Origin: Chimonanthus salicifolius
Lineage: Eukaryota > Streptophyta > Magnoliopsida > Laurales > Calycanthaceae
Direction: 5' to 3'
DNA length: 64,000 nucleotides
Assembly: GCA_013350335.1 (NCBI GenBank)
Contig: CM023532.1
Location: 91,019,383 to 91,083,382 of the forward strand
Part shown: in pieces, positions 613 through 63,650 of the stretch
How positions within the stretch are numbered: the first letter of the stretch is position 1
How the letters are laid out: the number at the start of each line of letters is the position of its first letter
Made by a program: the position numbers and the translations under genes
Notes under the pieces: generated by a model
What the model saw: only the letters and a program-made list of their open reading frames with translations
What the model was told of the DNA's origin: nothing
The model's database searches: none

Positions 613-1655
613 TGAGGTTAGGCCATGATGTATGGCCGAACCCCATCAAGTAATATAAACATGGTTATATGATATTTTTAAGATGAAGTGATGAACCATA
701 AGGTTCGGCCATGTTATACGGCCGAACCCCATGGAAGGGTGTTAGTGATTTAAAAGGTTTTAAAGGAAGAAAATAATGGAGGAATGGTATTGATATTTTT
801 AAATGGTCTCAAATGTTATAATGATGAAGAACCATGGACCATGGGTTCGGCCATGGTGTATGGCCGAACCCCATGGAGAGATATTGATGGACTTAGATAT
901 TTTGGACCATCAAAATAATGGGGGATGTTGGTAAATATTAATGAGTGGTAAAGGATGAAAATCATGCAAATATGTTAGTGATTTTAAATAAGGTTTAAAT
1001 GTTGTAAATGATAAACTTGAAATGAGGAAATAAGGAAGAACCAAGGATCATGGGTTCGGCCATGTTGTACGGCCGAACCCCATGGAGAAATATTAATGGA
1101 TGTATTATGGAGCCTTGGGTTTAAATGATGAATCTAATGTATGATTAAACCCCCCATGGAGGGACTTTGTTTATGGACCTAAGATTGTAAATGATTTAAA
1201 GGAGAAGATGGGAAATTAGACATCATGGATTCGGCCAAGGTGTATGGCCGAACCTCGTAAACCATTTTAATGGGTCATTTATGGGTCTATGCATGTTTAA
1301 ATGAATGGATTATCAAACCAAGGAATGGACGGATTTGTTAGGGATTTATGTCATGATTAATGAATCGTTTATGGATGTATGTTTATGGATCAATTATGGA
1401 CCTAAGTATGTATAGATAAAAGGTTGATTAGCTATGGAAAGAATAATGGCTAAGATGGAAAAATGGTGAAAATGATGGACCATGGGTTCGGCCATGGCGT
1501 ATGGCCGAACCCCATGGAGAAGTTTTTGTGGACTTAGGTTTTATTGATGCTAAATGACTAACTCATGTATGATTGGCTAATGAATCAAAAAAGGGACCCA
1601 AACCAAGTGAGTGAGGTTCGGCCATGTTGTATGGCTGAACCCCACCAAAGTATGT
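613..1655 (+). repeat. H1 hairpin array (7 copies)
   Basis: Seven dispersed copies of a short inverted repeat near 613, 697, 839, 1045, 1224, 1480 and 1614. The copy at 839-876 has left arm CCATGGGTTCGGCCAT, loop GGTGT and right arm ATGGCCGAACCCCATGG. That gives a 16-bp stem with one bulged C. Unique AT-rich DNA of about 70-240 bp separates copies. The copy at 1614 has a GTGAGG-type base instead of CCATGG. Confidence 0.9.
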
Positions 1656-3357
1656 TTATGGACTTAAACATAGCTAGAAGTTAAACGGAACGTTGGTTTA
1701 ACTTATTGATATGTAATGAGGTAACAGGACTTCTCAAGCAGTGTACGATCGGTGAGCGGTTTTCAGTCCAAAACGCAAGGATACACTAGTTGGTCATTGG
1801 TGGGATTCCTACCTCATTGAAACCATGGGATATGTATGATGATTTTAATTCATATTTTAATGAGTTATTTTGTATAAATGATATGTTTCAAATATGAGAT
1901 TTTAATGCTATGATTTGTATTATTACATAGCATGTTGGCATTTGCATCTCATGCATGGCATGGGAGGGATGAAATGCAACTGGAGACCACGCTCCGTCGG
2001 GGCGTCCGTAAGTGTAAGGGCCCGGAATTTTTAAAATTAATATAAATGGGAATGTTATTTATTTTAAGGATGAAAATTGGAAAATTTATGAAATAAAGGG
2101 GTAAATGGGCCAAAATTTGGACAAAGGCCCAATTATGGCCCAATAGACCATGGAGTGGATTTTAAAATTATGTAAGTGGTTAATGATGGCCAATTGGGCC
2201 ATGGGAGGTCAAATTGGGTCAAATACCCATTTGGGGACCCAATGGGTCAAGATGGTTGTGCTCTAAGGTAAATGGGCTAGATGGAAATGTAATTAGGTCA
2301 TGGGCCCAATGGGGATCCATTTAGAATGAATGGAATGAAATTTAATCATTTAAGTTATTTGGAAGTAAACCAAGGTAATGTGGCCAAGTGGGACCCACCT
2401 TCACCTCATCAAGTGAGGTGGCGTGTGGGCCAATGATTGGTGGGGCCGGCCACTATGGTTGACTTGGTCAACCATGGGTGGAATAATGGGAATTAGGTTA
2501 AATACAAATGAATTAACCTAAGGTAATTATCAAATTAATTAAGTAATTAATTTATTAAATTGGTGGCCAAATGGGGTTAAAATTGGTCAAATGGAGACCA
2601 AGCTACCCCACCTCAAAATTTACACACGTTGGTCTTGGTGATGGTTTAGATGACCACCACCATAAAGCAAAGAAAAGATATTAAAAATATCTCATAAGGT
2701 TGGTGAAACCAATTAATGTAAAGTAAAAGTCTTTAAGTCACCAAATGAGATAAGTTTTGTTGGTCCTCCCATTCTCATTGTCTTTTCACAAACTCCACCT
2801 CTTCCACTCTCCCATGGTCGTCCCCTACATCCAAGTGAAGGAGAGAAAAAGAGCTAAGGAAAAGAGAAGAGAAGGAGAGAAGAAAGGAGTAGAAATTGGA
2901 GGGAAATTACTCTAAGGTGAGGGCTAATATCTTTCCTCTCATGATTTTTCCCTTTCCCTCTCTCAATTTTGAACCCTACCTTGGCCGATCCTAAGGTTAG
3001 GGGTTGCCACCATGGATCAAGCATCTTGACCTATCAAAGATCAAGAGGAAGGAGAGAGGAGGCTAAGGAGACCGACGGGAGCGGCGGAAATCGGAGGAGA
3101 CGTCGGATTGTGAGTATTTCTTAAACAAGAAATTTTGGATTTTAGGGTTTAGGAATTGGAATTTATTTTGTATTAATGTAATGGTGGATAGATAATTTTA
3201 TGCTATGGAGTTTAAACCCATCAAATGAGAGGGTGGAAGATGGAGAAAACCCTAAATGGGTGAATTAGGGTTAGGGTAAGAAAATGACTAAATGGGTTAT
3301 GTGCATTATGTAAATTATGAAATTAAGCATGGAATGGGGTAATTGGAATAAAATTAT

Positions 3358-3850
3358 GGGCCATAGGGTTCGGCCATGTAGTATGGCCGAACCCCATGGT
3401 GGGTGATTTGGTCTTTGATGTAATTGGTTAAGGTTTTAAGAATGGAAAGCGATGAGGGTGTTAAGTTAATGAATTGTAGTAAATGAGTGAATGTGGGAAA
3501 TGTTTCAAAATGTTTTTTATGATGGAAATGTAAAGGGATTTTATGGCATTGGAGGGCATAGAAAGTGATGGATTGTGAACCATGGGTTTGGCCATGGTGT
3601 ATGGCCGAACCCTATGGTGATAATGGTGGACTTAATGGTTATGATTTATAGAGAAATAAATGGGAAAATGATAGTAGTTTTGATGAACCCAAAATATGTA
3701 ATGATACCTTAAAATGGTGATTTAAATTCATGATGTAAACCTCTCATGGGAAGACTTGTGGTAGATCTAAAATGTACTAAAGGATCCAAGGAAAAATGGA
3801 GAACGAGACATCATGGGTTCGGCCATGGTGTGTGGCCGAAACCCATGACC
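3358..3850 (+). repeat. H1 hairpin array in B LTR (3 copies)
   Basis: Three copies of the GGTTCGGCCAT inverted repeat near 3358, 3579 and 3810. The first has loop GTAGT and the second has a G-to-T change in the left arm (GGGTTTGG). The third carries GTGTG in the loop and a mutated right base. They lie 3' of the donor-like GTGAGT at 3110, as in other LTRs. Confidence 0.88.
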
Positions 3851-5316
3851 CATTTTGTAAGTTATTGTATGGGCTAAGGTTGGGTCCATGCTTGTATCTA
3901 GATGATGGAAAATTTGATTAAATTAAGTGGATGATTTAGGGATGTTAGGTCATGGCCAATGAATCATTAATGGACCTAAGTTAGGGACCTAAGTGGTGGA
4001 TCAAGTTTGGACTTAATCATACCTGGATAAATGAGTACATAATCATGTGAAGGGGTAGCGGCAAAATGGTAATTATTGGCTAAATTGAAGAAAACCCACT
4101 AAGATATGATTTATGGGTTTGGAAATGGTAAAATATGGACTAATGTGGTAAATTTAATAAGGTGTCAGATAGCGCGAGCGGTACGCGAGTCGGTAGCTGG
4201 ATTGTCGGACGAATACGGGAAAAGGACGCGAGTTGGTAATCGGTAGGATTCCTACATTTTTGTAAGCCATGGATTGGGTGATGTTTTCTTTAATTTATTT
4301 TGGAAAGCATGTGGTTGCCTTTAAGATGAGTTTTGGATTATGTATCTTGTGATGTTTTCCTTTAAATTATTTTGGAAATCATGTGAATGTCTTAAGATGG
4401 ATTTTGGATTAAATATTATGGGATGTTTTTCCCTTTGATTTATTTGATAATCAAGTAATTGTTTTAAGATGGGTTTTTGTGTTACTATTGAACTACATAT
4501 ATTTACATGGCACATGGCATCTACATCTCATGCATGGCATGGGAGGGATATGACAGGGAAATGATGAAATGAAACCGGAGTCCATGCTCCGTCGGGGCGA
4601 CCGATAAACAGCATGGGGACATTTCACATATGTATTATGATACCTTGATGATGCTTTTCCATCAAGGGGGATGTTGTATTTATTATTGTACCTTGATGAT
4701 GGTTTTTCCTTCAAGGGGGGGATGCCTAGTGTGGATCGCATCTTGATGAGGCTTTTGCATCAAGAGGGTCATGGTACGATGATGGTATGGATTCTATTTG
4801 GAATACTATGGATGGTTGGAAAAAGGGACATTGTAGAGTTGAGGATGAGATTGATGGGTGGGATTCATGACATAAAACACCCATTGCATTACATTGTACC
4901 AAATGGCATAATTTTGAGATAATATCTTCTATATGCATTGTTATTACTAATCCATGTGCTAGCCCTACTCAGAGTCCTACTGGGCGCGTGTTTTAACGCC
5001 CTACTTCTACCCTAGCTGATGACGCAGGAGGTGGCGAAACGGAAGGACGGGACGGGAGTCATGCTTAGTAGCTTGGGAAGGCAGATTCATTATGTTGTTT
5101 AAGTTTATGTTGGAAAAAATGTAATTTGAGTAACTTAGCTTGTCGGAATGTAATAAATTAGATTACGGGTTATGTTTTGGGATTTTATTATGGACATTAT
5201 GGTTTTGAGGTATTATAGAAATTTAAATGAATGTTATCTTCCTTGCTATCTCAAATCTGTAGGATAGTCTTTGTTGTTAATTCCGCACTGAGAAGTAATA
5301 TTCCTTGAGCTTACAT

Positions 5317-5361
5317 CTACGCGTGAACCGTACTCGTGGACTTGGCTCCACGCACGCGTAG
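5317..5361 (+). repeat. H5 double hairpin near LTR 3' end
   Basis: Outer arms CTACGCGTG (5317-5325) and CACGCGTAG (5353-5361), with an inner hairpin of CGTGGA pairing with TCCACG. Homologous positions in other LTRs read CTACGTGTG/CACACGTAG (34290-34335) and CTATGTGTG/CACACATAG (45154-45197). The pairing is kept while the bases change. Confidence 0.75.
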
Positions 5362-6635: not shown

Positions 6636-6637
6636 AT

Positions 6638-6649
6638 TGGTATTAGAGC
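6638..6649 (+). other. Primer-binding site, initiator-Met tRNA type
   Basis: TGGTATTAGAGC differs by one base from the standard TGGTATCAGAGC complementary to the 3' end of plant tRNA-iMet. It sits 2 bp after the copia LTR end and marks a plus-strand element. Confidence 0.8.
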
Positions 6650-14308: not shown

Positions 14309-15302
14309 GAAAGGAACCATAAGGTTCGGCCATGGTGTGTGGCCGAACCCCATGGAAGAAGATTGGGGGATGAATAAAGTAATCTTAAGGGAAGATGATG
14401 AACCATAGGGTTCGGCCATGTTGTATGGCCTAACCCCATGGAAAGAGATTGGTTATATTCTAATGGATTTGAATGATGAAAACCATGGAATATTATGGGT
14501 TTAAATGGAAGGTTGTTGGTGAAATACCTTAGACCATGGGTTCGGCCAAGGGGTATGGCCGAACCCCATAAAGAATAATGGATTTATTACTCACATAGTT
14601 AGATCATGGAGATGATGGCTAAGTTGTAAATATAGCTTAAAGTGAAAGTTCATGGGTTTGGCCATGGTGTATGGCCGAACCCCATGAGGTCTCTTTTATG
14701 GACTTGAGTGGTGAAGGACCTTATATGGGTCTAATGATTTTTAAAGAGAAGATTATGAGCCATAGGGTTCGGCCATGGTGTATGGCCGAACCCCATGGAA
14801 GATGGTTATTAATTTAGAAAGAAATTAATAATGGACTTTTGGATCAGAAAGGAAGGAACCTTGATTTATGGATTCAAGAATGAGAATTGATATAATTGGA
14901 AAGTTAGACATCATAGGGTTCGGCCATGGTGTATGGTCGAACCCCATGAATCAATTTTTATGGGTCATGTATGGACCTAATATGATTAAAGGAATGGAGG
15001 GTCTTATTTATGGTTCTATGGTTGTGGATCATTTGTGGATCCATCTATGTAATGTCTAAATTTATGGACCTATGTGTATGGACCTAAGATTATAAGTCAT
15101 GTAAATGGTGAATGAATTATATATGGATCACTCGTGGACTTGGGGATTTTATGTTGAGTTTTATGAATGATCAATTTTGGACCTAAACATGAGTGAATAA
15201 ATGAAGGTGATTAACCATGGAAGGAACAATGGCAAAAATGTAAATATGGTAAAAAATGAAAGACTATGGGTTCGGCCATGGTGTATGGCCGAATCCCATG
15301 GG
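14309..15302 (+). repeat. H1 hairpin array (7 copies, first block)
   Basis: Copies near 14318, 14403, 14537, 14652, 14758, 14911 and 15265. Most have a perfect 12-bp core stem GGGTTCGGCCAT / ATGGCCGAACCC around a GGTGT or similar 5-nt loop. The array is split by the B solo LTR at 15368 and resumes at 18893. Confidence 0.9.
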
Positions 15303-15367: not shown

Positions 15368-18300
15368 TGTAACGCCCGCCCCTTTTTCACCGAAAATCAG
15401 AGTTTATTTTTTTTTTTAAAAGTGACAAAGGGCACGGACGTCACGACGCGAGTTAAGTTCCGAGCTTCTAAAGCCCGGCCCTTAACTGGCCAACCCTACG
15501 CGTGCGTGGAACCAAGTCCACGAGTACGGTTCACGCGTAGAAAGTAAGCTCGCGGATTATAAAAATAAATGCAGATGATAATAAAACTATCCTATCAGTT
15601 TTCAGATAGCAAGGAAGAAATATCCATTAAATTGTTAAAATGCCCTCATACTGTACTGTCCAAAATAACTTATAAAACATAGCAAGCCATCTAAGTTATT
15701 ACATTTCCGACAAGCTAAATTATACAAATACACATTTTCCAAAATAAACTTAAACACAATAATTAGTCCGCCTTCCCAAGCTCCTAAGCTTGGCTCCCGT
15801 CCCGTCCTTCCGTTCCACCATCTCCTACATCGTCTGCTAGGGTAGAAGTAGGGCGTTAGAACACGGGCCCAGTAGGACTCCGAGTAGGGCTAGCACGTGG
15901 ATTAGTAATAACAATATACAGAAAATAACACAATGAAAACTGATAAACCATCATATAATGAAAATATAACATGATGCCATGCCATGGGTGTCTATGTTAT
16001 GCATCCCACCCATCATCCAAACCATATAATATCATATCCCTCTTGACGGAACAAAACCTCGTCAAGGTGTCCCCATGCCTTTTCTCGGTCGCCCCGACGG
16101 AGCACGAACTCCAGTTATCAAAATATCCCCATGCCTGCTTTTCGGTCGCCCCGACGGAGCATGGACTCTGGTTCCATTATTTTCCCGCCCATGCCGTGCA
16201 TGAGATGTAATGTATTATGCTATGTAATATATATATCTCATAACTCTAGTATATCATACATAGCCTTGGCATATAATGCATCATCTTAAAATATAAATCA
16301 TAGTATTAAACATAACATTCATAATCGTGAAAACCCATCATAAAATAAATCTCGTAGTCCACAAAATAAGATAAAGATACCATCACATATCCATGGCTTA
16401 CAAGGAGGTAGGAATCTTACCGAATACTGACTCGCATCCTTTTACGGTTTCGCCCGATAATCCGGCTACCGACACGCGTACTGCTCGCGATATGCAATAC
16501 CCTATTACATACACATAATCAGTTCACATTTTAACTATTTCTAAGTCCATTCACATTTCCAAGTCCATATGAAAAACCGGTCCCTATTTAGGTTTTGTGG
16601 GTCCCATTTCATCTATTAAAACTTTTAATCCCATAAGTCTTAAAAATTGGCCACCTTAGGCTTTATCAATCACTTATAAGGTTATTACATTAAAGCCCCT
16701 AAGTCCATGATCAATCTCCATGGAATTCTTGAATTTGGCCATTAATTACAGTTTTGCCACTACTTCATTTTCCATGATTAATCACTCACTTATCCAAGCA
16801 TGATTAAACCCCTAATTGATCATAAACTTAGATCCCTAACTTAGGTCCATTAATGACCCATTGAACCATTTCATAACATCATTAAAATTAGCCTTTTTAT
16901 TAACCTAACCCTTATTCATTTAAACCCATACAAAACCCCACATTTAACCCTTTAGATGGGTAATAGATCATGGTTTTAAAATACCTCATTCATCAACTCT
17001 TCCCATGGGATTTACTTCATACATTTAAACTACAATGAGTCCATTACCCATTCATACCCTTTGGAAACCATAAACATCACTCATCCTCCAATTTAACCCA
17101 TCAAAATGGATCCACAATTGGGCCATGGGTTCGGCCATACACCACGGCCAAGCCCATGGTGTCCTTTCCCCATTTTTTTCTTGGATCTAATTACACCATT
17201 TAGATCCAAAATAAATCCTTCCTTGAGGTGGTTTAAATCACACTTTTAAACCACTACTCTTAGCCCCATTTGGATCATTACATTTGTTCATTTAAAACCC
17301 TAAATTCATCAACACATTATCCTTTAAACCCACCATTTAATCACCATTTCATCACCATAGGGTTCAAGGTTCATTCCATCCATGCATTTCAAAGCCATAA
17401 AACTCCATTACATTTTTATCATAAAATCATTTTTAAACTTACCCACACTCACTCATTTAAAACCCTAATTTTCATTAGCTACAAACCCTCATTGTCTTCC
17501 ATCCATAAAACCCTAACCAATTAAACCAACCACCAAATCACCCACCATGGGGTTCGGCCATACTACATGGCCGAACCCTATGGCCCATGATTCTTATTCC
17601 AAGCACCCCATTCCATGCTCAATTCCATAAATTATACAATGCACATACTACATTTACTTATTTCTTTTCCCTAACCCTAATTCACCCATTTAGGGTTTTC
17701 TCCATCTTCCACCCTTCCATTTGATGGATCGAAATTCCATAGCATAAAATTATCTATCCACCATTTATTTCACAAAAATAAATTCCAATTCTTAAACCCT
17801 AAAAATCCAAAATTTCTTGTTTAAGAAACACTTACAATCCGTCGTCTCCTCCGATTTCCGTCACTCCTGTCGGTCTCCGTAGCCTCCTCTCTCCTTCCTC
17901 TTGATCTTTGATAGGTCAAGATTCTTGATTAATGGTGGAAATCCCCAACCCTAGAATCGGCCAAGGTAAGTTTAAATTGAAAGAGGGAAGAGGAAAGGAT
18001 GATGAGAGGGGAGATAATCACCTTGACCTTAGAGTGATTTTGTGTAAATTTCCACTTCTTTCTTCTCTCCTTCTCTTCTTAGCTTCCTTTCCTTAATTTT
18101 TTTCTTCTCTTTTCCTTCCTAGTGTGGGACGGCCATGGAGAGTGACAATGAAGAGAGTTGAAAAGAGGATAAGAAAATGGAAAAGAACTCAAGACTTACC
18201 CCCCCATTTGGTGACTTAAACTTACCCTTTATATTAACTACTCTCACCAACCAAAGCAAGATATTTTAAAGATCTTTTATTTACTTTATGGTGGTGGTTA

Positions 18301-18892: not shown

Positions 18893-19158
18893 CATGGGTT
18901 CGGCCATGGTGTATGGCCGAACCCCATGAGGAATATTTTGGTTATGGATTTGAACAATGGCAATAATGTAAATAAGTGTGAAAATGATAAACCATGGGTT
19001 CGGCCATGGTGTATGGCCGAACCCCATGGGGAATGATTTATGGTTTTAATGTATGAAGGGTTAGGTTAATGGAGTGATAGCCATGGATGGCAATATGGTA
19101 GTTAAGTAGAAATAATGGACCATGGGTTCGGCCATGGTGTATGGCTGAACCCCATGGG
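18893..19158 (+). repeat. H1 hairpin array (second block, 3 copies)
   Basis: Continuation of the array interrupted by the B solo LTR: copies near 18893, 18994 and 19119, all with GGTGT loops. The third has one right-arm mismatch (GGCTGAACC). Confidence 0.9.
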
Positions 19159-20959: not shown

Positions 20960-22028
20960 ACCATAGAGTTCGGCCATGATCAAGGGCCGAACCCCATGGA
21001 GGAACTTTGGTTATTTCTATGGGTTAAAACCATGGAAAGACATGGTTTAATGTATGGATTTTTAATGGATGAATTTTGTGAAGATCCTAGACCATGGGTT
21101 CGGCCATGGAGTATGGCCGAACCCCATAAATATTTATGGAATTATGTTCATGAAATTAAATCATGGAAAATGATGGGAAAGGTTACCTGTGATTTATTTT
21201 AAATGGATGGAAGGTTTGATGGTTTTAGATGCAATTAGATCATGAAAACCATGGAGGGTTATGTTGTTTTGATTTCATTTAAAAGAGAACATTATGAACC
21301 ATAGGGTTCGGCCATGGTGTATGGCCGAACCCCATGGAGGTGTATTGGTGTTGTTAATTGTATTTTAATTGCTTAAAATAGAAGATGGGTATTAAATTAG
21401 AAAGTTTCTAATTATGGACCTTTTGATCAAAAAGGGAAGGAACCTTGAATTATGGATTCAAGTATGGAAGTTGCTATAATTGGAAAGTTATACATCATAA
21501 GGTTAGGCCAAGGTGTATGGCCGAACCCCATGAACCAACTTAAGGGATCTTATGGGGTTTTATGTCACGGTTAATGGATTGTTTTATGAATCAATGTTAT
21601 GGATCGGTTTTGGATATGAACATGAGGTAATGGGAATTCTGTAATATCGGTAAAAAAAAAAAATGAAAGATCATGGGTTCGGCCATGTTGTATGGCCGAA
21701 CCCCATGAACTTGTTAACATATGTGGGCCTTTGTATAATGTAAATGAATGGTTTACCAAACCAAGGGATGAAAGATGAAAATAATGGAATGATAGCCATG
21801 GATGGCAATATTGTAAATAAGCAAAATTAATGGACCATGGATTTGGCCATGGTGTATGGCCGAACCCCATGGGGATTGTTTTGATGGACTTAGGGTTCAC
21901 GTATGTTGGATTAAATAAAAGGGAAGTGATTAAATATTTAGCTTAGGGGTTATTGATTAATAAACCAAAGAAGGAAACTAAAACAAAAGGGGCGAGGTTC
22001 GGCCATGGTGTATGGCCGAACCCCACAA
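20960..22028 (+). repeat. H1 hairpin array (7 copies)
   Basis: Copies near 20960, 21091, 21300, 21497, 21671, 21835 and 21990. The last has a base GCGAGGTTCGG/CCGAACCCCAC instead of CCATGGG. A half copy (left arm only) is near 20920. Confidence 0.88.
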
Positions 22029-24957: not shown

Positions 24958-26206
24958 CATAGGGTTCGGCCATGGTGTGTGGCCAAACCCCATGGAAGAA
25001 AATTGGGGGATGAATAAAGTAATCTTAAGGGAAGATGATGAACCATAGGGTTCGGGCATGTTGTATGGCCGAACCCATGGAAAGAGATTGGTTATATTTT
25101 AATGGATTTGAATGATGAAAACCATGGAATATTATGTATGTTTTAAAAGGGTTTAAATGGAAGGTTGTTGGTGAAATACCTTAGACCATGGGTTCGGCCA
25201 AGGGGTATGGCCGAACCCCATAAAGAATAATGGATTTATTACTCACATAGTTAGATCATGGAGATGATGGCAAAGTTGTAAATATAGCTTAAAGTGAAAG
25301 ATCATGGGTTTGGCCATGGTGTATGGCCGAACCCCATGAGGTCTCTTTTATGGACTTGAGTGGTGAAGGACCTTATATGGGTCTAATGATTTTTAAAGAG
25401 AAGATTATGAGCCATAGGGTTCGGCCATGGTGTATGGCCGAACCCCATGGAAGATGGTTATTAATTTAGAAAGAAATTAATAATGGACTTTTGGATCAAA
25501 AAGGAAGGAACCTTGATTTATGGATTCAAGAATGAGAATTTATATAATTGGAAAGTTAGACATCATAGGGTTCGGCCATGGTGTATGGCTGAACCCCATG
25601 AATCAATTTTTATTGGTCATGAATGGACCTAATATGATTAAAGGAATGGAGGGTTTTATTTATGGTTCTATGGTTGTGGATCATTGGTGGATCCATGTAT
25701 GTAATGTCTAAATTTATGGACCTATGTGTATGGACCTAAGATTATAAGTCATGTAAATGGTGAATGAATTATATATGGATCACTCGTGGACTTGGGGGTT
25801 TTATGTTGAGTTTTATGAATGATCAATTTTGGACCTAAACATGAGTGAATAAATGAAGGTGATTAACCATGGATGGAACAATGTCAAAAATGTAAATATG
25901 GTCAAAAATGAAAGACCATGGTTTCGGCCATGGTGTATGGCCGAACCCCATGGGAATGATTTATGGATTATTGGTGGACTTAGATGTTTATGGACCTATG
26001 TTTTGAACCTAAACGTAAGTCGTTGGAGATAATGGCAATATTGTAATATAGGCTAAAAAATCAAAGATCATAGGTTCGGCCATGGTGTATGGCCGAACCT
26101 CATGAGGAATATTTTGGTTATGAATTTGAACAATGGCAAAAATGTAAATAAGTGTGAAAATGATAAACCCTGGGTTCAGCCATGGTGTATGGCCGAAACC
26201 CATGGA
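24958..26206 (+). repeat. H1 hairpin array (9 copies)
   Basis: Copies near 24958, 25043, 25187, 25302, 25413, 25565, 25915, 26070 and 26170. This is the most complete uninterrupted plus-strand block. Spacing is about 85-350 bp. Confidence 0.9.
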
Positions 26207-32289: not shown

Positions 32290-32886
32290 TCATGGGTTCG
32301 GCCATGGTGTATGGCCGAACCCATGACCCAATTGTAGATCATTTTTTGGTATAAGATTAATGTGTATGTATATGCTTAAATTAATGGAATTAGGTTAATT
32401 ACATGGTTGAGGTAAGTGCTCTTGTGATATGGTTGATGGATCAATTATGGACTCAAGATGTGGCTAAGAATGATGATTCAATTATAAGTCATTTTTATGG
32501 GCTAAGAAAGGGTTTATGTATGTGGTTAATTAATGTAGATTAAGTTAAGAAAAAGGGTTGTTTTAATGATATTATGGCATGATTAAATGGGTCACTAATG
32601 GACTTGAGTGTATGGATCAATTATGAATAAAGGTATACATGGTTAAGTGAATGATGAACCATGGAAAAAGAGGTAGTGGCAAAACCGTAAATAATGCCCA
32701 AATTCAAGAACTCCATGAGAAATGATCATGGACTTAAGTGCAATTATGGTAACCTTAAGTATGTGATTAATAAAGCCTAGGGTGGCTGATTTTTAAGACT
32801 TATGGGATTAAAAGGTTTAATAGATTAAATGGGACCCACAAACCTAGTTAGTGAGGTTCGGCCAAGGTGTATGGCCGAACCCCGCT
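32290..32886 (+). repeat. H1 hairpins in B LTR (2 copies)
   Basis: One CATGGG-type copy near 32290 and one GTGAGG-type copy near 32850, whose right arm ends CCCCGC. The rest of this longer LTR (31300-32280) has no H1 copies. Confidence 0.88.
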
Positions 32887-43439: not shown

Positions 43440-44170
43440 CCATAGGGTTCGGCCATGGTGTTTGGCCGAACCCCATGGGGTAGTTTTGGAATGGAGATTA
43501 AAATAGGAAACTATCTAATTTTAGAATTGGTTGCTAAAATTGGAAAGCATCCAATTTTGGAAATATGGTGTCTAAATTTGGAAACTATCCAAGTGTGGAA
43601 GGTATTTGCTAAATTTAGAAAGTTTCCAATTTGGAAGGTGTTTGGTAAAATTAGAAGCTACCTAATTAAGGACTTTCTAAATAAGGATTTTTGGAAACCA
43701 TACGGTTCGGCCATGGGTATGGCCGAACCCCATGGAATTGTTTTGGTATTTTTAGTGTAAATAAATTTATGGTTATTAATTTAGAAAGTGGAGATAAGAT
43801 TGGAAACAAAGGTATCATGGGTTCGGCCATGTGTATGGCCGAACTCCATGAATCAAAAATTGTGGGTTAGGCTTTGTGTTTTGTAAATAAAGTAAAAGAT
43901 ACAATGTATGTTATGGAATGATAGCCATGGATGGCATTCTTAGTAATTATGTGAAAAATATGGAACATTAGGTTCGGCCATGATGTAAGGCCGAACCCCA
44001 TGAATTATTTTATGGACTATGTGTTTTGGATTAAAAGAAGCATGTATGGATGATTTCGAATCTAAGCAAAGAAAAAGGGCTATGGTTATGAACAATGGCA
44101 TTTTCGTAAATAGGTATGAAAAATGGTAAGCCATGGGTTCGGCCATGGTGTATGGTCGAACCCCATGGGG
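43440..44170 (+). repeat. H1 hairpin array (5 copies)
   Basis: Copies near 43440, 43699, 43816, 43967 and 44132. Two have shortened loops (GGGT and GTGT), showing that the stem is better kept than the loop. Confidence 0.88.
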
Positions 44171-50055: not shown

Positions 50056-51165
50056 TTAGGGTTCGGCCATGTAGCATGGCCGAACCCCATGGCCAATGTT
50101 GGATGATTTTTTATTAGGGTTTGAAGGTTTAAAAGTATGGAGAATGATCAATGGTTTTATGAGGATTTCAAGATGTTAAAATGATTAAAAGTTGATAAAT
50201 TTTAAGAGGTTTTGAATAAGGAAATTTCATGAAAATATGGGTGATCTTTCATGGCCTTGAAAGGCATAGAATGGAATGAATGGATGACCATAGGGTTCGG
50301 CCATGTAGCATGGCCGAACCCCATGGTGAATAATGAGTGATTTATTAAGGTTATTAGGTTTAAAGATAATGAAGAAAAATGATAAATGTAAATGGACTTA
50401 TTGAGTATGGAATGTGAGGTTTAGATGGAATGAAAATGGCGATGATTTAATGATTTGAAAATAGATTATTTTGGGACAAAATTAATGATTTTTATGAAGA
50501 TCTTAAAGTTGGTAATTTATGGTATTTTGTTAATGGAAATGAGGAAATGATTGGTGGTAGAAGTGGAATCTAATTGTAATTAAAAATCCAAGACAAAAAT
50601 AAGGGAAAGACATCATGGGTTCGGCCATGGTGTATGGCCGAACCCATGACCCATGTTTTAGGTCATTCATGGGCTAAGTATGGTTTATACATGTGCTTAA
50701 ACAAAATGGAAATAAGTTAAGTTAATGATAAAATATTAAATGGATTGGTAAGCATGGTAGGTGATGTTTTATATGAGATGAAAAATGGGGTTTTAAATGA
50801 ATGACTTAAATTCATTTGGTGAAGGTAAAATGAACCAAGAAATTAGGAAATGGACATCATGGGTTCGGCCATGGTGTATGGCCGAACCCATGACCCCTTT
50901 GGGAGCCATATTATGGGCTAGGTATGGAATTATTTATGGGATTAAATATTTACAAATTTAATTAAACTAGATGGCTGACTTTATGATGTTATGTCATGAT
51001 TAAGAAATTATAAATGGGTCCAAGTTTATGGGTCAAATATGGACTTAAATATGTATGGATAAAAGGGGTAACTTAACCATGGAAGAGGAGTGGCAAAACC
51101 GTAATTTGTGGCCACATTGAAGGACCATGGGTTCGACCATGGTACATGGCCGAACCCTATGTGGG
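50056..51165 (+). repeat. H1 hairpin array in B LTR (5 copies)
   Basis: Copies near 50056, 50287, 50616, 50862 and 51126. The third and fourth have shortened right bases (CCCATGACC). The fifth has GGTTCGACC in the left arm. Confidence 0.88.
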
Positions 51166-53319: not shown

Positions 53320-54190
53320 TAGGGTTCAGCCATGGGTATGGCCGAACCCCATGGAGGAAAATTAAGGAATGTATGATTATTTTTAAAAGAAGTAGACGAA
53401 CCCCATGAAAAGATAATTGTTTGTATGTAATGGAAATAGGATTAAGTAAATGGATAACACATTTTGGATGATTAAAGGATGGAAATAATAGATCAAGGAT
53501 TAAAAAGGTGGACCAAAGATAATTAAGTGACGTTCGGCCATGAAGTATGGCCGAACCCCACTAGGGTTATTTTATGGACTGATTTATTTTAGAGGTATGC
53601 AAAACATGAAAACCATAGGGTTCGGCCATGTGTATGGCCGAACCCCATGGACCATTTTTATGGGTTAATTGGAGTTAAAAACATGGTTAGAGATTATTAA
53701 TGGTTCTATGCTTTTGATTAAGGAATCATATATGATTATCTTGGGACTTAGTATTAAGTAAGTAATCAGCCATGATAGATGATAACAAAAGGGACAAAAA
53801 TCAATATGGTGAGGTTCGGCCATGTGGTATGGCCGAACCCCACTAATGGTTATTTGGTGGACTTAGTTTCTTTTGAAGTGGTCAACTTGTAATATAATTG
53901 GTCAAATCAAAATGGAGACTTATGTATGATGGATTAAAGTAAATGAAAGGTTAAACAAGGGTTAGGCTGATGGCAATATTGTAAATATGGAATGAAAAGA
54001 TCAAAGGACTTGAAGAAGGGGCCAAAAGCAAAATGGTGAGGGTCGGCCATGTTGTATGGCCGAACCCCACCAAGGTGTATTTGGTGGATTGAGGTTTTTA
54101 AATGAGTTGTTTGAATGGTATTGGTTAAATAAAAAGAGAGATCAAATTCAAGTGAGTGAGGTTCGGCCATGGTGTATGGCCGAACCTCAC
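53320..54190 (+). repeat. H1 hairpin array with alternative stem base (6 copies)
   Basis: Copies near 53320, 53529, 53618, 53809, 54037 and 54156. Four have the GTGAGG-type base. The copy at 54156-54190 is a perfect 15-bp stem, GTGAGGTTCGGCCAT with ATGGCCGAACCTCAC around GGTGT. Confidence 0.9.
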
Positions 54191-55797: not shown

Positions 55798-57162
55798 TAT
55801 ATGATACTCCATGGCCGAACCCATGGTCTAGGATCTTCACAAAATTCATCGATTAAAAATCCATACATTAAACCATGTCTTTCCATGGTTTCTAACCCAT
55901 AGAAATAACCAAAGTTCCTCCATGGGGTTCGGCCCTTCATCATGGCCAAACTCTATGGTTCAACAACTTCTCTTTAAACCATTTAAACCCTTTTAAAAAT
56001 CACAAGCATACATCTATAATTTTTCAGTTTCAATTCTATTAAAATAACTAATGTCCTTCATGGTTTTCTTCCCTCCAAAAATTATATACCATTACCAACA
56101 AACTCCCATGGGGTTCGACCATACAACCTGGCCGAATCCTATGGCCCATTAATTCGTTTTTAAATCATATATCTAAGATTTCATCATTTGATGGTTCTCA
56201 TTCATACATTCATCCAAACCTTTTAAAACCATTCTAAACTATTAACCATCTTCCATTAAAACCGAACATTCATCCCTTAATCTTCTTCCATGGGGTTCGG
56301 CCATACACCATGGCCGAACCGTATGGTTCTTTTCTTTTAAACAAAATTATCAAATACTAACCGGTTCCGCGACTCTTTCGGCTTGTTCTTACTCTTCCAA
56401 TCCTGTATGGTCGAACCCTATGGTTCCTTTCTTTGAAACAAAATTATCAAATACTAACCGGTTCCGCTTCTCCTTCGGCTTGTTCTTGCTCTTCCAATCC
56501 TTCTCTTCCTTAGCCTCTTCTCCTCCTTGATCTTTCACAAAGCTGAGAACACCTCTTGCTAATGTGCAAACCAGCGTCAAGACCCTTGTTTAATTGTGTA
56601 TTGCCATGCGCCTCTCCTTCTTCTATTTTATAGTTTCCAATTGATCCAATATTAGAAGGTGCCTTGCGCCCCTACTTAGCAAGTGCCTTAGTGCCGTGCG
56701 CCCTTTTTCTATAACACATCCACTCAGCCAAGCAACTTCTTTATTTGGATTTAAACATCTTCTTTATTTAAGAAATAAGATATCATTGCCTAATTCTACT
56801 TATCCCAACGTGTGACCAATTTTAGGACCGTCCTAAAATCTTTCCATTTAATCTTAGATATCTTCTTAAGATATTCTAGCATATCAATGTGGATATGAAA
56901 ATCCCACATACATCTCATGCGCATGTCCTTAATCTAGATAGATATTGTTTCATATCAACCTCACATACACAGCCAAATTAATCCATATCTAATTTTTAGA
57001 CACATTGCATACCCTTTTAATTCAACCCCATTTATTGAAACCATTCCCAAAACCGTTGGGTCTTAATTGGGCAATGACCCAACATTTTTACCCATATAAG
57101 GTCCAAAACTAATAATTCACAAATTAAATGGGTATCTTTCATTGAAAATCCAGGGTGCTACA
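55798..57162 (-). repeat. 3' LTR of copy 2, truncated
   Basis: Plus-strand right end AGGGTGCTACA (TGTAGCACCCT on the minus strand). The left part is missing beyond an H1 half hairpin at 55798. It includes H1 copies near 55921, 56105 and 56289, a donor-like GTTAGT at 56356-56361 with a partial local duplication of the leader end near 56400-56470, and TATAAAAT at 56625-56632. It matches 63100-64000 in the 5' LTR. Confidence 0.88.
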
Positions 57163-57168
57163 ATACAA

Positions 57169-57178
57169 CCCTCTTTTT
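57169..57178 (-). other. Polypurine tract
   Basis: Minus-strand AAAAAGAGGG, 6 bp before the 3' LTR, identical to copy 1. Confidence 0.8.
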
Positions 57179-57222
57179 AAAATTTTTGTCCCGAAAATCG
57201 AGTGAAATTGGGTTTCAAACAT

Positions 57223-58660
57223 TTACATAAATCGCTCAGGATGAGATGTCCTCATTTCCGACTCGAGTTCCCATGTGGCTTCCTCAATGCCATGTCGATC
57301 CCATACCACCTTGACAAACTGGATTGCTTGGTCTCGTAATACCCTTTGTTCTGTGTCCACCAGTCGGACAAGCTTTTTGACATATGTCATGTCGCTCTGG
57401 ACATCTATTTCTTGTATGTTCAGTACATGAGAAAGATCAGGATTGTACTTCCTCAACATCGATATATGGAACACATCGTGCAAAGATGCCAACTGTGATG
57501 GGAGTGCCAATTGATAAGCCACATCCCCCATCCTTCTTATGATTGAAAACGGTCCCACATATCTTGGCGACAATTTCCCTTTCTTTCCAAATCTCATGTG
57601 TCCCTTTCGTGGTGAGACTTTCAAGAACACCATGTCTCCCACTTCAAATTTGAGAAACCTTCTCCTCTTGTCAGCATAGCTCTTCTGATGACTTTGCGCA
57701 GTCAACAGGTGCTGCCGTATCAACTGTATATACGCTGTAGTCTCTGCAACCAACTCAGGTCCAATCAGTGTAGGCTCACTGGCCTCTGTCCAGCATACTG
57801 ATAACCTACAAGGTCTACCATATAATGCCTCAAATGGAGCCATCTGGAGGATTGCCTGGTAACTGTTGTTGTATGAGAATTCTACCAACGGCAAGTGATC
57901 CTCCCATCCACCCTTGAAATCTAGTATACATGTCTCAGCATATCCTCCAATGTTTGTATTGTCCTCTCAGACTGCCCATCAGTTTGTGGATGGAATGTTG
58001 TGCTAGTAAGTAGACCTGCTCCCATGGCCGACTGCATGCTCTGCCATACTCTGCCAGTGAATCGACCACCTCTGTTGGTCACAATAGTCCGAGGTATACC
58101 ATGCAATCTGATGATATCCTTGATATACCGCCGACCTAAAGTCTTGGATGAGTCTGTCATCTTAATAGGAATGAAATGTGAAGACTTGGTCAGTCGGTCC
58201 AGCACGACCCATATTGCATCGTTGCCCTTTGAAGACCTTGGCAGCCCTATCACAAAATCGATGGAAATGTACTCCCATTTCCATTCTGGCACTGGTAAGG
58301 GTTTGAGTAACCCTGGTGGCTTCTGATGTTCCGTCTTAACCTGCTGACACGTTAAGCAATGAACCACAAATTCTGCCACATCTCTTTTGAGTCCGTGACA
58401 CCAGTAATATCTCTTTAGGTCGTGATACATCTTGGTGCTGCTCTAATGAATTGAGAGTTTGGTCTGATGTGCCTCAATTAGTAACTCTTTTCTGCAGTTC
58501 TTAGGCACATATATCCTTCCTCGGAATACAAGACCCTGTCCTGGTCGTAACTCCCATTCCGGTATGACTTCACCAGTAAACATCTTGGTCCATATCTCCT
58601 CCATTTCCTAATCTATCCGTTGTTCCTATTCAATCTTGTCAAGTACCACTTAATTATATC
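57223..58660 (-). pseudogene. pol: Ty3/gypsy chromovirus integrase, inactivated
   Basis: Begins abruptly near 58650 in the RNase H-integrase connection (RPGQGLVFRGRIYVPK), with early stops. The zinc-binding part includes HCLTC (58360-58346), and a TAG near 58444 interrupts just before it. The core frame 58430-57921 has D58 (SIDFVIGLP) and E155 (QSERT), but the second catalytic Asp is Asn (N119, VTNRGGRF). A one-base loss near 57934 shifts to the frame 57894-57223: LPLVEFSYNN-like region, GPY/F module (RYVGPF), then a C-terminal chromodomain-like segment (VVWDRHGIEEATWELE...HPERF). This end would guide integration to chromatin. The lineage is Tekay/Del-like chromovirus by these motifs. Confidence 0.9.
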
Positions 58661-60141
58661 AAAATCACTCATAGCAACCTATGAGTTTCATTCTCGCTGA
58701 ATTTACTCTGTCTCATGTTATCTCTTTTTCTCGTGAACCCATTTACGATCTTATGTAGATCAATGTACTCTGTTTCACTTTACCTGTTACCAAGATATTT
58801 TCCATACGTACTTGCTCAATACGTTCATTCGTCTACTCTCTGTGTGAGGTATCCTGCCAATACGAGCGTATGCTCAAGTCTTTTGCTGATTCCATTTTAA
58901 CTAGGTTTCTAGCTGCACTCTCCTAGAACTCCATCGGCTAACTACAGAGTCAACTGGCCAGTCTAACTCGGCAGTCGCCCATAGCTTCCCATTCGAGTTT
59001 CACTAGACTCTTAACTTTGCCCTTAAGTACATTTCGCAAAAGTAAGCATATCTTCATTTGCACATAAGTCACTATGTGACTAACACCTTCTGTTCAAAAC
59101 TTCTATGATACCGAGTATCTCTCCACACTAATTTTCCTGTGATACAAGTCGTAATACGATTAACGCCTTTTTCTTTTAACGTGGGACGTAAATCGAAACA
59201 TGTCCCAATCATTAGATCTATATGTCATCTATGAGACCAACAGGTCCATCATACTACTAACATGTCTACCATGGTACCGACACCTGACATTAATCCAAAC
59301 CACCATGGGAACCACCATCCATGGTTATACACATCCATCCCTGGTACCACTCTATCAGTGAGTATCTCTATCGATGGTTAATAACTATCAATAAATATAA
59401 CCCTCCTATGGGTATAATCCATTCATGGGCATAATTAATCCATAGCACATCATCTACCGTGAGATATTCTATCCGTAGGAGCAACAATCGAATGAATCAC
59501 TATTTAACTATGGCAACAATACCAAATCATAAATATACCCCGACCCCTAGCAAGACTTAGGACCCATGACTTACTAAGCGGAAGATCCACGTCCAACGTG
59601 GTCAAGTCTACCCCGTCCTACGTCCCTTCACCCCAAGGGTGATTCAGTCAAACTCTAAGGCGGTCGGTCCGCGTCTCACGAAGCTAGCACCACCCCCACG
59701 GGGTAAAATAGTACCTAGCTCTGCGCATCCATGCACATCAAGTGTGCGAAAACGCAGTGAGAACGCCCTCCAGCGCTTACCATGCGAGGGACACACTCCT
59801 AACAGTAACCCTATGGGACCAAGTCTCCATAATTTCGTATCGAGGTTCCACAGTTTCATAGCTACTCTGAGCCATACTCATAGAATCTATATACTTATCT
59901 CATCAATATTACGTGAGAGACACACCCATGCCACATCTCAATAAAATCAAGTGACCTCGTCACCCACATCTCAATGCCCAAGTCCTCATAAACTCTTAAA
60001 TTTGCATACTTTATTAAAAATTATTCAAACTTTCATCACTATAAAAGGTTTGGTAGGGTTAGAACAAACCCTTCATTATGTAACCACAACCTTTACAAAA
60101 TCTTTCCCTAGTTCCCCGACATTTCCTTACCTTTTCTTAGC
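58661..60141 (-). other. Non-coding internal region of copy 2
   Basis: About 1.5 kb without a credible ORF, collinear with copy 1. The last 300 bp (59560-59860) holds short perfect inverted repeats: CCACGTCCAACGTGG at 59587-59601 and TCACCCCAAGGGTGA at 59628-59642. The expected gag C-terminus, protease, RT and RNase H are missing; the tract does not resemble them. Confidence 0.7.
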
Positions 60142-60669
60142 CTAATCTTCTGTAGAAGATCCTGCATCATCACCAAAATAGAAGAAGTTGTTGGGGCATG
60201 TCGTTGACGTGTGCCCCAACACTCCACAAGTCAGACAGGGTATTATTCCTGGTCCCCCAATGTAAGGACAGTTAGTCCTCTCGTTCCCGTGCCCGTGAAG
60301 TCCACAAACAGGGCATATAACCTCAATAGGGTGGGGGCAATAAGTATAGTCGTGCCCCTCCTGATTGCATAATTCGCACATATAATCTGTCAACTCATCC
60401 GAAGTCGGAGTAGTCGGAGTATACTCGGGAGAGCCTATCTCCCCTACGAATTCTTCTAAGTTTGGGGCATCTTCCTCGTCCTCTTCGGTTACAAAGGCTG
60501 GAGCAACCCCAACATTGTACTCGGGCAATTCTACTTCCATGTCCTGACTGATTACAACTTCATTGATGAAGTTTGGCACGCTAGAATCGTCGAAAGAAGA
60601 AACCAGATCTATTGGACAGCTAGGTGTCCCGCTGTCCCACAACTCTGTATACTCTGTGTTGCCTGACAT
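60142..60669 (-). CDS. Three-zinc-knuckle protein of non-autonomous retrotransposon
   Basis: Intact 175-codon ORF from ATG at 60667-60669, chosen because it follows an acceptor-like GATACAG by 2 bp and is shared with copy 1; the frame is open 12 codons further up. It has an acidic middle (TEEDEED at residues 61-67), then three CCHC knuckles: C98-C101-H106-C111, C119-C122-H127-C134 (longer last spacing) and C145-C148-H153-C158. The tail is acidic and ends in STED. CCHC knuckles in gag bind RNA, so a role in packaging element RNA is plausible, but there is no capsid domain. I do not recognise the family. An origin as a captured host gene is possible. Confidence 0.75.
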   Translation of the reverse strand: MSGNTEYTELWDSGTPSCPIDLVSSFDDSSVPNFINEVVISQDMEVELPEYNVGVAPAFVTEEDEEDAPNLEEFVGEIGSPEYTPTTPTSDELTDYMCELCNQEGHDYTYCPHPIEVICPVCGLHGHGNERTNCPYIGGPGIIPCLTCGVLGHTSTTCPNNFFYFGDDAGSSTED

Positions 60670-60671
60670 AA

Positions 60672-60695
60672 CTGTATCACAACAACAGAAACATA
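60672..60695 (-). other. Splice-acceptor-like site before zinc-knuckle ATG
   Basis: Minus-strand GTTTCTGTTGTTGTGATACAG, pyrimidine-rich and ending in AG at 60672-60673, 2 bp before ATG. The CAG and its context are kept in copy 1. Confidence 0.5.
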
Positions 60696-60705
60696 TCAAT
60701 GACAA

Positions 60706-61030
60706 CCAGAATTCTAATCAAACTAATCTTTGTTTTGGGGAATTTCTCTACGTATCACATAATGTCTCTTTTTTGGGGAAAATTGCCAAAACGGCACTCT
60801 TGATTTTGCTTTGTTTCTAGGGAAATATATCCTAAGTATCATGTATTCGTTTTCTCCATTTGGGGATATCGGGAAAGTATCTCCTAATTTGCTATGTTGG
60901 ATAAATCCATTTATTTTGACTGTACTTCCTTTGCTATCATCCATTGTTGTTCTCAGATTGAGTCTAACGAAATAAATTAATGCCCGGGGGCCGGATTAAT
61001 TTACTCCGAAAGATTCAATCTTTCTGGTTC
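60706..61030 (-). other. Leader of copy 2
   Basis: Non-coding leader between PBS and ORF. It includes an alternative 73-codon frame (60723-60944) without a recognised domain. Homologous leader text is shared with the gag-bearing plus-strand elements, so the two element types have common 5' ends. Confidence 0.6.
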
Positions 61031-61042
61031 TCTCTGATATCA
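61031..61042 (-). other. Primer-binding site, initiator-Met tRNA type, two mismatches
   Basis: Minus-strand TGATATCAGAGA versus TGGTATCAGAGC; located 2 bp from the LTR end at 61045. Confidence 0.85.
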
Positions 61043-62207
61043 ATTGTAACACCCCGCCCTTTTTCACTCTCTTCTCTGCTTTCCGAAAATCAGAGTCTAT
61101 TTTTTTTTATATAAACAAAGAGTGATAGAGAGCGGGACGTCATGACGCGAGCTAAGTCCGACCCTTAACTGGCCAACCCTATGTGTGCATGGACTAAGTC
61201 TATGAAAACAGTTCACACATAACAATATCAACATGTGGAATAACATCATAACTTGCGGAATTATAATAGAACCTAGTTCTATACCATTTCAGATAGCAAA
61301 GTACGTCAATTCTTTAATCATAATTAAAGTTAACTCAATTATCCAAATAAACATCCAACCATAGCAAATCATCTATGTTATTACATGTCCAAAGTCTAGT
61401 TACTCAAATACAAGTCCATAAGTAACTCAATAAAAAATATAAACTAAAATCATCCAAGCTCCCATGCCTGGCCCGTTTTGCGTTCATCCTTCTCCTTGTT
61501 TCCTGTATCATCCACTAGGGTAGAAGTAGGACGGTAGAACAACGCGCCCAGTATGTATTCCAGTTAGGGCTAACACATGGTTAGTACAAAACATATATAA
61601 TAATATCATAATGTCAAGAGCCATATAAGCCATGCCATGCAATGATGACAACTGCAATGAGTCCCACCCATCACATGTACATTTAAGTACCCACCACATA
61701 GGTCTTTCGGACGCCCCGACGGAGTGTGGATCCTCTGGTTTCTTCCTGATGGAAAAGCACATCAAGGTATCCCACATAGGTTTTTCGGACACCCCGACGG
61801 AGTGTGGCCCCTCCGGTTACATATCCTTCACCCCATGCCTTGCATGAGATGCAAATGAATCACATGCTATTTTATCATATAAACATAGCATTTAAAATCA
61901 CAGTTTGAAACATATTCCACATATGCTATTTCATCATATAAACCTAGCATTGAAAATCACAATTTGAAAAATATAGTCCTTTACAACATAATTTCATCAA
62001 TAATAAGATAAAACAATTGTACATAAACCCATGGTTTCAAAGAGGTGGAATCCTACCAAAGACCACTACATGTCCTTGCGCTTTTCGTCCGGTAACCACT
62101 CACGATCGTACACACCTTGTGAGGTCCCGTTACCTTATAATGCATTAATCAATTAAAACCATGTCCCATTTGATTTACAATAATGTTTAAGTCCAGAAAC
62201 ACAATCC

Positions 62208-63650
62208 CCATGGGGTTCGGCCATACACCATGGCCGAACCCATGGTTCCTTATGTTCATTTAATTACCAAATTGCCATCCATGGCTATCACTCCATTAAC
62301 CTAACCCTTTATACGTTAAAACCATAAAATCATTCCCCATAGGGTTCGGCCATACACCATGGCCGAACCCATGGTCTATCATTTTCACAGTTATTTACAT
62401 CATTGTCATTGTTCAAATCCATAAAAACATTTCTCATGGGGTTCGGCCATACACCATGGCCGAACCCATGATTCCTCACTTTCACCCTTTATTACAACTT
62501 TGCCATTGGTCTAATCATTTCAACCTTTCATTCATTAACACATGCCTAAGTCCATGTTTTGATCCACAAACCTACCTCATGGGGTTCGGCCATACATCAT
62601 GGTCGAACCCATGATCCATCATTTTTGCTTATATTTACAACATTGCCATTCATACCACTCCATTCATTTAAATCTTCCATAAATAGACCCTAAGTCCAAA
62701 CCGATTCATAATCATTGGTTCATGGGGTTCGGCCATACACCATGGCTGAACCTTATGATGTCTAACCTTCCATTTTAATCAAAAGTCCATAATTAGAAAC
62801 TTCCTAATTTTAATAACCATCCTCCATTTTAGAATGTATTTACAACTTTGCCATCATCTCCATGATTAGAACCTTTCTATTTTTATATTGCCTCCATTAC
62901 CTTTTTGAATCCATAAAATAAACCCTAGTGAGGTTCGGCCATACACCATGGCCGAACCTCACTCATAGAGACAATCCAACCGTATTAAATCCATCTATAT
63001 TTTTCCATAGTTTTCATCTTTCAAAACTTCCATTCATTTAAAATAAATCTCAAGTAACCTTTCCCATCATTTTCCATGATCTAATTTCATGAACATAATT
63101 CCATAAATATTTATGGGGTTCGGCCATACTCCATGGCCAAACGCATGGTCTAGGATCTTCATAAAATTCATCCATTAAAAATCCATACATTAAACCATGT
63201 CTTTCCATGGTTTCTAACCCATAGAAATAACCAAAGTTCCTCCGTGGGGTTCGGCCCTTCATCATGGCCGAACCCTATGGTTCAACAACTTCTCTTTAAA
63301 CCATTTAAACCCTTTTAAAAATCATAAGTATACATCTATAATTTTTCTCTTCCAATTCTATTAAAATAACTAATGTCCTTCATGGTTTTCTTCCCCCCAA
63401 GAATCATATACCATTACCAACAAACTCCCATGGGGTTCGGCCATACAACTTGGCCGAACCCTATGGTCCATTAATTCGTTTTTAAATCATATATCTAAGA
63501 TTTCATCATTTGATGGTTCTCATTCATACATTCATCCAAACCTTTTAAAACCATTTTAAATTATTAACCATCTTCCATTAAAACCCAACATTCATCCCTT
63601 AATCTTCTTCCATGGGGTTCGGCCATACACCATGGCCGAACCCTATGGTT
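62208..63650 (-). repeat. H1 hairpin array (10 copies)
   Basis: Copies near 62208, 62339, 62436, 62578, 62722, 62928, 63112, 63245, 63429 and 63610. Plus-strand loops are mostly ACACC. The copy at 62928-62962 has the GTGAGG base with a perfect 15-bp stem. This is the densest array in the window. Confidence 0.9.

Follow-up and report, generated by a model that had tools for sequence, protein, structure and literature searches.

An array of palindromic hairpins in the long terminal repeats of a Ty3/gypsy element of Chimonanthus salicifolius: fixed core, covarying collar and a possible cis-acting role

The long terminal repeats (LTRs) of a plant retrotransposon carry, in a 64,000-nt stretch of Chimonanthus salicifolius DNA (GCA_013350335.1, contig CM023532.1, 91,019,383-91,083,382 of the forward strand; hereafter the window), arrays of a short hairpin, named H1. 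The window consists mostly of LTR retrotransposons nested in each other, and the H1 design comprises two 12-bp arms with a TTCGGCC core, a 5-nt loop and up to 4 further matched outer pairs. The reading that we tentatively place ahead of the others is that H1 is an array of DNA-level dyads in the LTR's upstream part, acting in cis and probably regulatory. It is favoured because the fixed core, the near-fixed spacing of the arms, the single polarity, the placement in the LTR and a constraint at the level of lineages all fit it. The array would offer binding sites to a host factor acting as a dimer, by which LTR transcription would be driven or shaped, and the multiplicity of the hairpins would come about through gain and loss of hairpin-plus-spacer units. 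Three elements of this scheme, namely the position of the array in U3 upstream of the promoter, the binding of a protein and the effect on transcription, are ones that we infer.

The LTRs were delimited by self-comparison, by their termini TGTAAC...GTTACA and by 5-bp flanking duplications, with ends accurate to 1-2 bases. They fall into two related groups, A (~2.5-3.3 kb for copies with both ends visible) and B (~3.5-4.1 kb), and LTR-like stretches total 43,822 of the 64,000 bases, the left end of the stretch at 1-2012 not being established. Matches to the 12+5+12 design at up to 3 mismatches number 72, against 0 in 100 dinucleotide shuffles, and a looser rule (up to 4 mismatches per arm, loops of 2-10 nt) yields 77 copies, in line with the ~75 claimed in a first-pass annotation of this DNA. 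The loop is 5 nt long in 72 of the 77, 4 nt in 4 and 3 nt in a single, doubtful copy (457-483). Both arms are perfect in 24 copies, 23 of which have a 5-nt loop; in the larger set that adds 20 loci to the window, 185 of 195 copies with at most 2 mismatches have a loop of 5 nt, hence the near-fixed arm spacing. A search for perfect inverted repeats (arms of at least 9, loops of 3-8) returned 118 hits, overlapping registers included, of which 83 are H1, while five first-order Markov sequences give 1-4. Confinement to LTRs and a loop polarity that follows LTR orientation had also been claimed, and both are borne out: all 77 copies lie within LTR-like stretches, and 76 loops start with G in the LTR sense, the sole exception being the doubtful copy, with the caveat that a few loops would start with G on either strand. 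Each LTR of the window holds 2-10 copies; counts of at least 8 occur only in some LTR-A, and LTR-B copies have 2-5. A pseudo-open reading frame spanning three hairpins returned no homologue in a protein search.

The two parts of the stem behave differently. In 194 unique oriented copies, departures from the core affect one side of the stem, matched double changes occurring only 3 times within the inner 11 pairs and 3 times at the outermost one. Judged from these copies, the 12-bp core (TTCGGCCAT-5-ATGGCCGAA, which contains the CGG-CCG signature) is fixed as sequence. Its sense-strand changes comprise 41 C>T versus 54 G>A, without excess of the wobble-leaving C>T; pairing in the sense RNA is not favoured, because wobble-tolerant pairing predicts such an excess. 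Directly outside the core comes a position that is frequently an A-C mismatch or a one-base bulge, and then up to 4 pairs in matched versions. The first-pass annotation had recognized this matching but described two versions, where there are three: CCAT/ATGG in 83 of the 194 copies, TCAT/ATGA in 30 and GTGA/CAC in 18. Mixed classes are rare (e.g. C-A 6, T-G 4), 15 copies being unclassed on either side. The mean outer pairing is 4.10 of 5, versus 3.60 (standard deviation 0.04) in 1000 reshufflings of the partners; beyond the outer 4-5 bases, pairing shows no excess over reshuffled partners. Genome-wide, among copies with a perfect core and a GGTGT loop, the outer pair is C-G in 3,173, T-A in 1,678, T-G in 240 and C-A in 335 (odds ratio ~66), so that the sense wobble T-G is not commoner than its mirror C-A. 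Likewise, GTGA...CAC occurs 3,306 times, GTGA...ATG 23 and CAT...CAC 44, in patterns that differ from one another in the gaps they allow, and the A-C mismatch beside the core is present in 96 of the 100 listed GTGA-type copies (100 of the 3,306). On these counts the two sides of the outer collar are coupled, and nothing points to selection on the sense RNA.

The copies are clonal, and the coupling of the outer pairs may reflect few ancestral events. When both flanks of two hairpins are homologous (94 pairs), 4 matched changes, in 2 slot groups, are found beside 3 unmatched ones, 55 pairs being the same and 32 untyped. With one homologous flank (593 pairs), the changes are matched in 108, unmatched in 79 and unpaired in both in 6, with 229 the same and 171 untyped. 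In an alignment of 14 last or late slots, four A copies display the CCAT version and three others the GTGA version at what is apparently one orthologous place. Pairing of the loop ends (G-T in 172 of 199, G-C in 13, A-T in 8, G-A in 6) was dismissed as evidence, since any transition at that position gives a pair.

Stem and spacer divergence were compared in 656 alignments, each 300 bp or longer and containing a hairpin on the query side, drawn from the window and 25 loci, most pairs being seen from both sides and the stem columns being called in the query only. Pairs at least 92% identical differ by 3.0% in stems and 1.6% in spacers (p 0.024), or by 2.9% versus 1.5% outside CpG (p 0.030), these p values assuming an independence that the aligned sites do not have. 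In the identity classes 80-92, 70-80 and below 70%, stem divergence remains at 6.6, 6.5 and 7.5%, as opposed to 11.8, 18.1 and 23.0% for spacers, and the window taken alone exhibits the same pattern. Calling hairpins by similarity lowers the apparent stem divergence, an effect judged unable to yield a flat versus a rising line. A flat stem line and a rising spacer line between lineages, with stems above spacers in near-identical pairs, argue for a sequence kept where elements replicate and lost where they are inserted. The constraint thus appears to act in the multiplying lineages and not on inserted copies, which would decay freely. The lower variability of stems relative to spacers, proposed earlier, holds for old lineages but is reversed between copies differing by less than 8%.

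In the 8 window LTRs that were measured, both ends being visible, the arrays are placed between 28 and 64% of the LTR length, and the last 1,117-1,759 bp hold no hairpin. This hairpin-free 3' part is conserved between A and B, and 6 of the 7 A stretches compared have a candidate TATATA ~555-590 bp ahead of the LTR end (one of them by adding a 165-bp continuation). The hairpins hold 145 of the 914 LTR CpGs in 5% of the length. Several other motifs were seen in these LTRs. H1-free blocks conserved between A and B are found in the 3' parts (e.g. 44110-45340 and 51100-52574), where an ACCGGAG...CTCCGTCGGGGC block occurs twice in most copies and a stem-like block GGGCGCGTTG..CTAACGCCC precedes CTTCTACCCTAG. 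LTR-B copies harbor a second perfect hairpin, ATGGTTGAC-3-GTCAACCAT, at 2455-2475, 38283-38303, 38473-38495 and 49199-49223.

The carrier was characterized from a minus-strand element at ~55.8-64 kb, both LTRs of which are partly in view and 95-96% identical over the compared stretches. Its open pieces match the integrase families PF24626 and PF17921 above the curated cut-off; in another A element, the piece 28807-29460 hits PF00665 with a score under that cut-off. The first integrase piece aligns through its chromodomain-like end with 6 selected relatives, PF00385 being listed there in 5 of the 6; PF00385 itself gave no score in the window integrase piece in a profile search. Because of these family matches and this alignment, the carrier is assigned to the plant Ty3/gypsy elements and called chromovirus-like. 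The window yielded no recognisable piece of a reverse transcriptase; by resemblance, the carrier may be Tekay-like. A TTGGTATCAGAG stretch lies immediately internal to two LTRs, and we take it to be a tRNA-Met-type primer site. Just inside the 5' LTR end of the minus-strand element, an open frame (60145-60717, minus strand) displays several zinc-knuckle-like Cys/His clusters; it has one homologue at E ≤ 1e-3 in a protein search (P0121, 47% over 92%) and a DNA-level relative at ~39087-39386 (92%). To note, 7.3 kb of the window (6242-13540) are without H1 and gave a single short self-match (10415-10576) in the self-comparison.

The arrays and the internal region are distributed as follows.

615..1642, plus strand: 7 H1 copies (615, 701, 843, 1052, 1227, 1484, 1614) in an LTR-A-like stretch, ~1-2012
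3366..3843, plus strand: 3 H1 copies in LTR-B 2013-5493
14322..15296, plus strand: 7 H1 copies in LTR-A 13541-15367, the first piece of an interrupted LTR
17127..17578, minus strand: 2 H1 copies in an inverted LTR-B, ~15368-18838, flanks TGTAA/CGTAA, interrupting the LTR-A whose first piece is 13541-15367
18896..19152, plus strand: 3 H1 copies in the continuation (~18838-20135) of the interrupted LTR-A
20966..22023, plus strand: 7 H1 copies in LTR-A ~20136-23140, flanks TAGTC/GAGTC
24962..26200, plus strand: 9 H1 copies in LTR-A 24184-26223
27657..28022, minus strand: 3 H1 copies in an inverted LTR-A, ~26224-28714
32294..32882, plus strand: 2 H1 copies in LTR-B ~30332-34470, flanks GGCAA/GGCAA
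36615..37265, minus strand: 4 H1 copies in an inverted LTR-B, ~34896-38919, flanks AAATA/AAATC
43445..44163, plus strand: 5 H1 copies in LTR-A 42612-45340
50059..51157, plus strand: 5 H1 copies in LTR-B ~48601-52573, flanks GAGTT/GAGTT
53322..54187, plus strand: 6 H1 copies in LTR-A 52575-55502
55925..56321, minus strand: 3 H1 copies in an inverted LTR-A, 55804-57142, the 3' LTR of the element with internal region 57143..61044
57143..61044, minus strand: internal region of an LTR-A element, with integrase pieces at 57226-57966 (SH3 and chromodomain-like end) and 57924-58442
62213..63643, minus strand: 10 H1 copies in an inverted LTR-A, 61045-64000, which continues beyond the window

The LTR-A that starts at 13541-15367 resumes at ~18838-20135 and again at 23141-23305; LTR-A 24184-26223, with 95.8% identity to 13541-15367 over the shared stretch, is probably its 3' partner. 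Two of the 5-bp flank pairs are identical (GGCAA and GAGTT) and the other three differ at one base; the four LTR-B copies with such similar flanks look like solo LTRs.

H1 is not a local feature of the window. The 852.6-Mb host genome contains 37,527 exact copies, the reversed control giving 0, and as only 23 of the 77 window copies match the exact pattern, extrapolation gives a possible total in the region of 100,000. Most of the exact hits listed for the first 4.3 Mb of contig C1 were inspected with their surroundings, as 20 regions of 10 kb. These gave 155 H1 calls (one place being counted twice), 136 in stretches resembling the window LTRs and 19 without such a match. Of these 19, 17 lie inside arrays; the remaining two are L009:6326 (6 mismatches) and L017:7294 (3). 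In 5 arbitrarily placed 10-kb regions, all 14 calls fall in two regions that also hold LTR-like sequence, an association judged by region and not copy by copy, and three regions have none. Another copy is present within 1 kb of 229 of the 230 non-overlapping copies of the window and the 20 loci, with a median spacing of 159.5 bp, peaks at 80-100 and 140-180 bp, and 171 of 190 spacings between 80 and 280 bp. The exact patterns found no match in collections of viral contigs and genome contigs, which are non-plant and hence little informative. Two loci ~25 kb apart, L011 and L012 (G000:C1 ~1.045 and 1.071 Mb), contain a divergent 9-copy array with mostly ATTGT or GTTGT loops and a nearly identical layout.

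The internal organization of the arrays is modular. The 218 hairpins of 47 arrays delimit 265 spacers that group into 31 families and 39 singletons, and the family order is, by eye, broadly preserved. Neighbouring spacers that both belong to families share the same one in 34 of 172 pairs, which indicates that the arrays are partly degenerate tandem units; the earlier description of them as loose arrays and not tandem repeats holds only in part. With hairpins masked, and on a base of pairs homologous on at least one side, two-sided homology is found in 18% of the 400 pairs at hairpins, compared with 40% of the 156 at control positions; the difference is zero or less in 6 of 1000 bootstraps over arrays, and single controls range over 31-53%. 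Of the 92 pairs homologous in the right flank only, 39 differ in both outer arms and 7 in a single arm; among 227 homologous in the left flank only, one arm alone differs in 61 and both in 62. The hairpins are thus frequent joints between array modules, be it by provoking switching or as shared homology. Ends of high-scoring segment pairs, only mildly closer to hairpins than random (27% vs 23%), were set aside as breakpoint evidence.

What H1 does, or whether it does anything, can be weighed from these data. Of the roles formulated in the first-pass annotation (RNA structure, protein-binding cruciforms, small-RNA source), a DNA-level protein-binding dyad fits best, and its CGG-CCG core is the same as that reported for the Sirevirus boxes (PMC2829016). 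Several observations weigh against it. An ordinary dimer site has no need of matched outer pairs, which point to pairing as such; the recurrent A-C mismatch or one-base bulge flanking the core makes the symmetry imperfect; the clonality of the copies means that the counts are not independent; the candidate TATATA is at no regular place in LTR-B, which leaves the U3 placement conditional; and the CpG observed/expected ratio, counted in place, is modest, 0.66 in hairpins vs 0.54 in the remaining LTR. Hairpins acting in LTR-derived RNA, at the 3' end of the genomic RNA or in antisense, for packaging, dimerisation or reverse transcription, would explain why the outer pairs covary and why both arms differ together in the alignment of last slots. 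Eight strands from 6 H1 copies do fold with z of -5.1 to -8.4. The mutation pattern nevertheless does not favour a sense-RNA role: neither core nor collar displays a sense wobble preference, the outer T-G and C-A counts leaning, if at all, toward antisense, and matched core changes almost never occur. Furthermore, in minimum-energy folds of 24 whole arrays, only 82 of 151 stems form in sense, against 116 of 151 in antisense; we think that the low sense figure is due to cross-pairing of identical arms. An RNA role is, on balance, unlikely. A similarly small chance is given to the idea that pairing itself is functional at the level of the element, the fixed core and covarying 4-bp collar being selected as a hairpin or cruciform only during replication, and serving also as a joint for the duplication and reshuffling of arrays.

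A functionless origin has been considered as well, in which arms and arrays arise as a mutational by-product of template switching and unit duplication, the hairpin templating itself during reverse transcription. The sister relationship of some neighbouring units, the deficit of two-sided homology at hairpins and the excess of double over single arm differences in right-flank-only pairs would all follow. Self-templating would, however, tend to repair the mismatch beside the core, yet the A-C persists in nearly all listed GTGA-type copies. Under such an origin, stems and spacers should also have diverged equally between lineages, which is not seen, and it leaves unexplained a core that stays fixed while spacers diverge two- to three-fold more; moreover, the 61 left-flank-only pairs with a single differing arm imply that hairpins do not always move as units, and segment ends are only mildly nearer to hairpins than random ones. 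We regard it as quite unlikely. The palindromes could instead be retained because small RNAs and methylation arise from them or are directed at them, in parallel to what is reported for maize Sirevirus palindromes (PMC5311732, PMC10760457). Being silenced would not alone select a motif in replicating lineages, and the CpG ratio of the hairpins is little above that of the rest of the LTR. The paired stem, ~16-17 bp, is also shorter than a dicing substrate usually has to be, and such a silencing handle is improbable. Finally, a miniature inverted-repeat transposable element (MITE), or another independent mobile hairpin accumulated in LTRs, would be short, high-copy and palindromic, like H1. The first-pass annotation had named copies outside LTRs with their own target duplications as the sign of a MITE. 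What is found are arrays and not dispersed singles, with a neighbour for all but one of 230 copies, and calls in arbitrary regions that keep to those with LTR-like sequence; on these grounds a MITE origin was rejected as extremely improbable. One isolated H1-like copy outside an array (L017:7294-7322, 3 mismatches, loop CCAAT) has no flanking duplication visible by eye, no systematic search for such duplications having been made.

The cis-acting dyad array that we tentatively favour has a close relative in the literature, and the earlier statement that no LTR feature like this had been described does not stand. LTRs of Sireviruses (Ty1/copia) contain high-copy palindromic RM boxes with dyad symmetry and a CGG-CCG core, for which a transcriptional role was proposed without proof (PMC2829016). 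These boxes form CpG islands, measure 10-20 nt in Table 3 and are counted on one LTR plus linker, with a criterion of at least 8 per element and another of additional copies upstream of an ENV gene; they are reported absent from the classic Ty1/copia elements compared, Ty3/gypsy being outside the subject of that paper. H1 shares with them the multi-copy LTR palindromes, the CGG-CCG core, the clustering away from the LTR 3' end and a strong conservation within the family versus divergent flanks. In contrast, its carrier is Ty3/gypsy with a chromovirus-type integrase, which places it outside the Sireviruses; it is longer (29 nt, extended by up to 4 outer pairs); its spacings mostly fall between 80 and 280 bp, its outer pairs covary and its CpG enrichment is modest. 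Copy numbers, 2-10 per LTR for H1, linkers not being compared, stand against a threshold that includes the linker. By its carrier H1 is not one of the RM boxes, although it resembles them, and what is new by this comparison is the other superfamily, the longer stem and the covarying outer pairs. Maize Sirevirus LTR palindromes are reported to be small-RNA hotspots (Bousios 2016, via PMC5311732 and PMC10760457). They, too, are clusters of one LTR palindrome with predicted secondary structure, but they have the motif CACCGGACNNNGTCCGGTG, belong to Ty1/copia and come with small-RNA evidence. The LTR models of PMC3601003, which include a chromoviral clade, resemble the H1 LTRs in their short inverted TG...CA termini and AT-rich core promoter; the word stem "palindrom" is absent from its main text, and the part considered describes no such array. 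No palindrome array in Ty3/gypsy LTRs was found in the titles and abstract openings of the open-licence literature, among the matches listed, and the matches listed there for the H1 arm strings appear unrelated by title.

If the preferred reading is true, CGG-CCG palindrome arrays arose in both great plant LTR superfamilies, which would speak for a shared host factor or a shared pressure rather than for a Sirevirus oddity. More than 37,000 exact copies in one genome give the power to separate selection in replicating lineages from decay after insertion, and the same copy number lets pairing be told from sequence within a non-coding element. Were pairing itself functional and the hairpins also joints, a single structure would serve a Ty3/gypsy LTR as its unit of regulation and, at the same time, of recombination.

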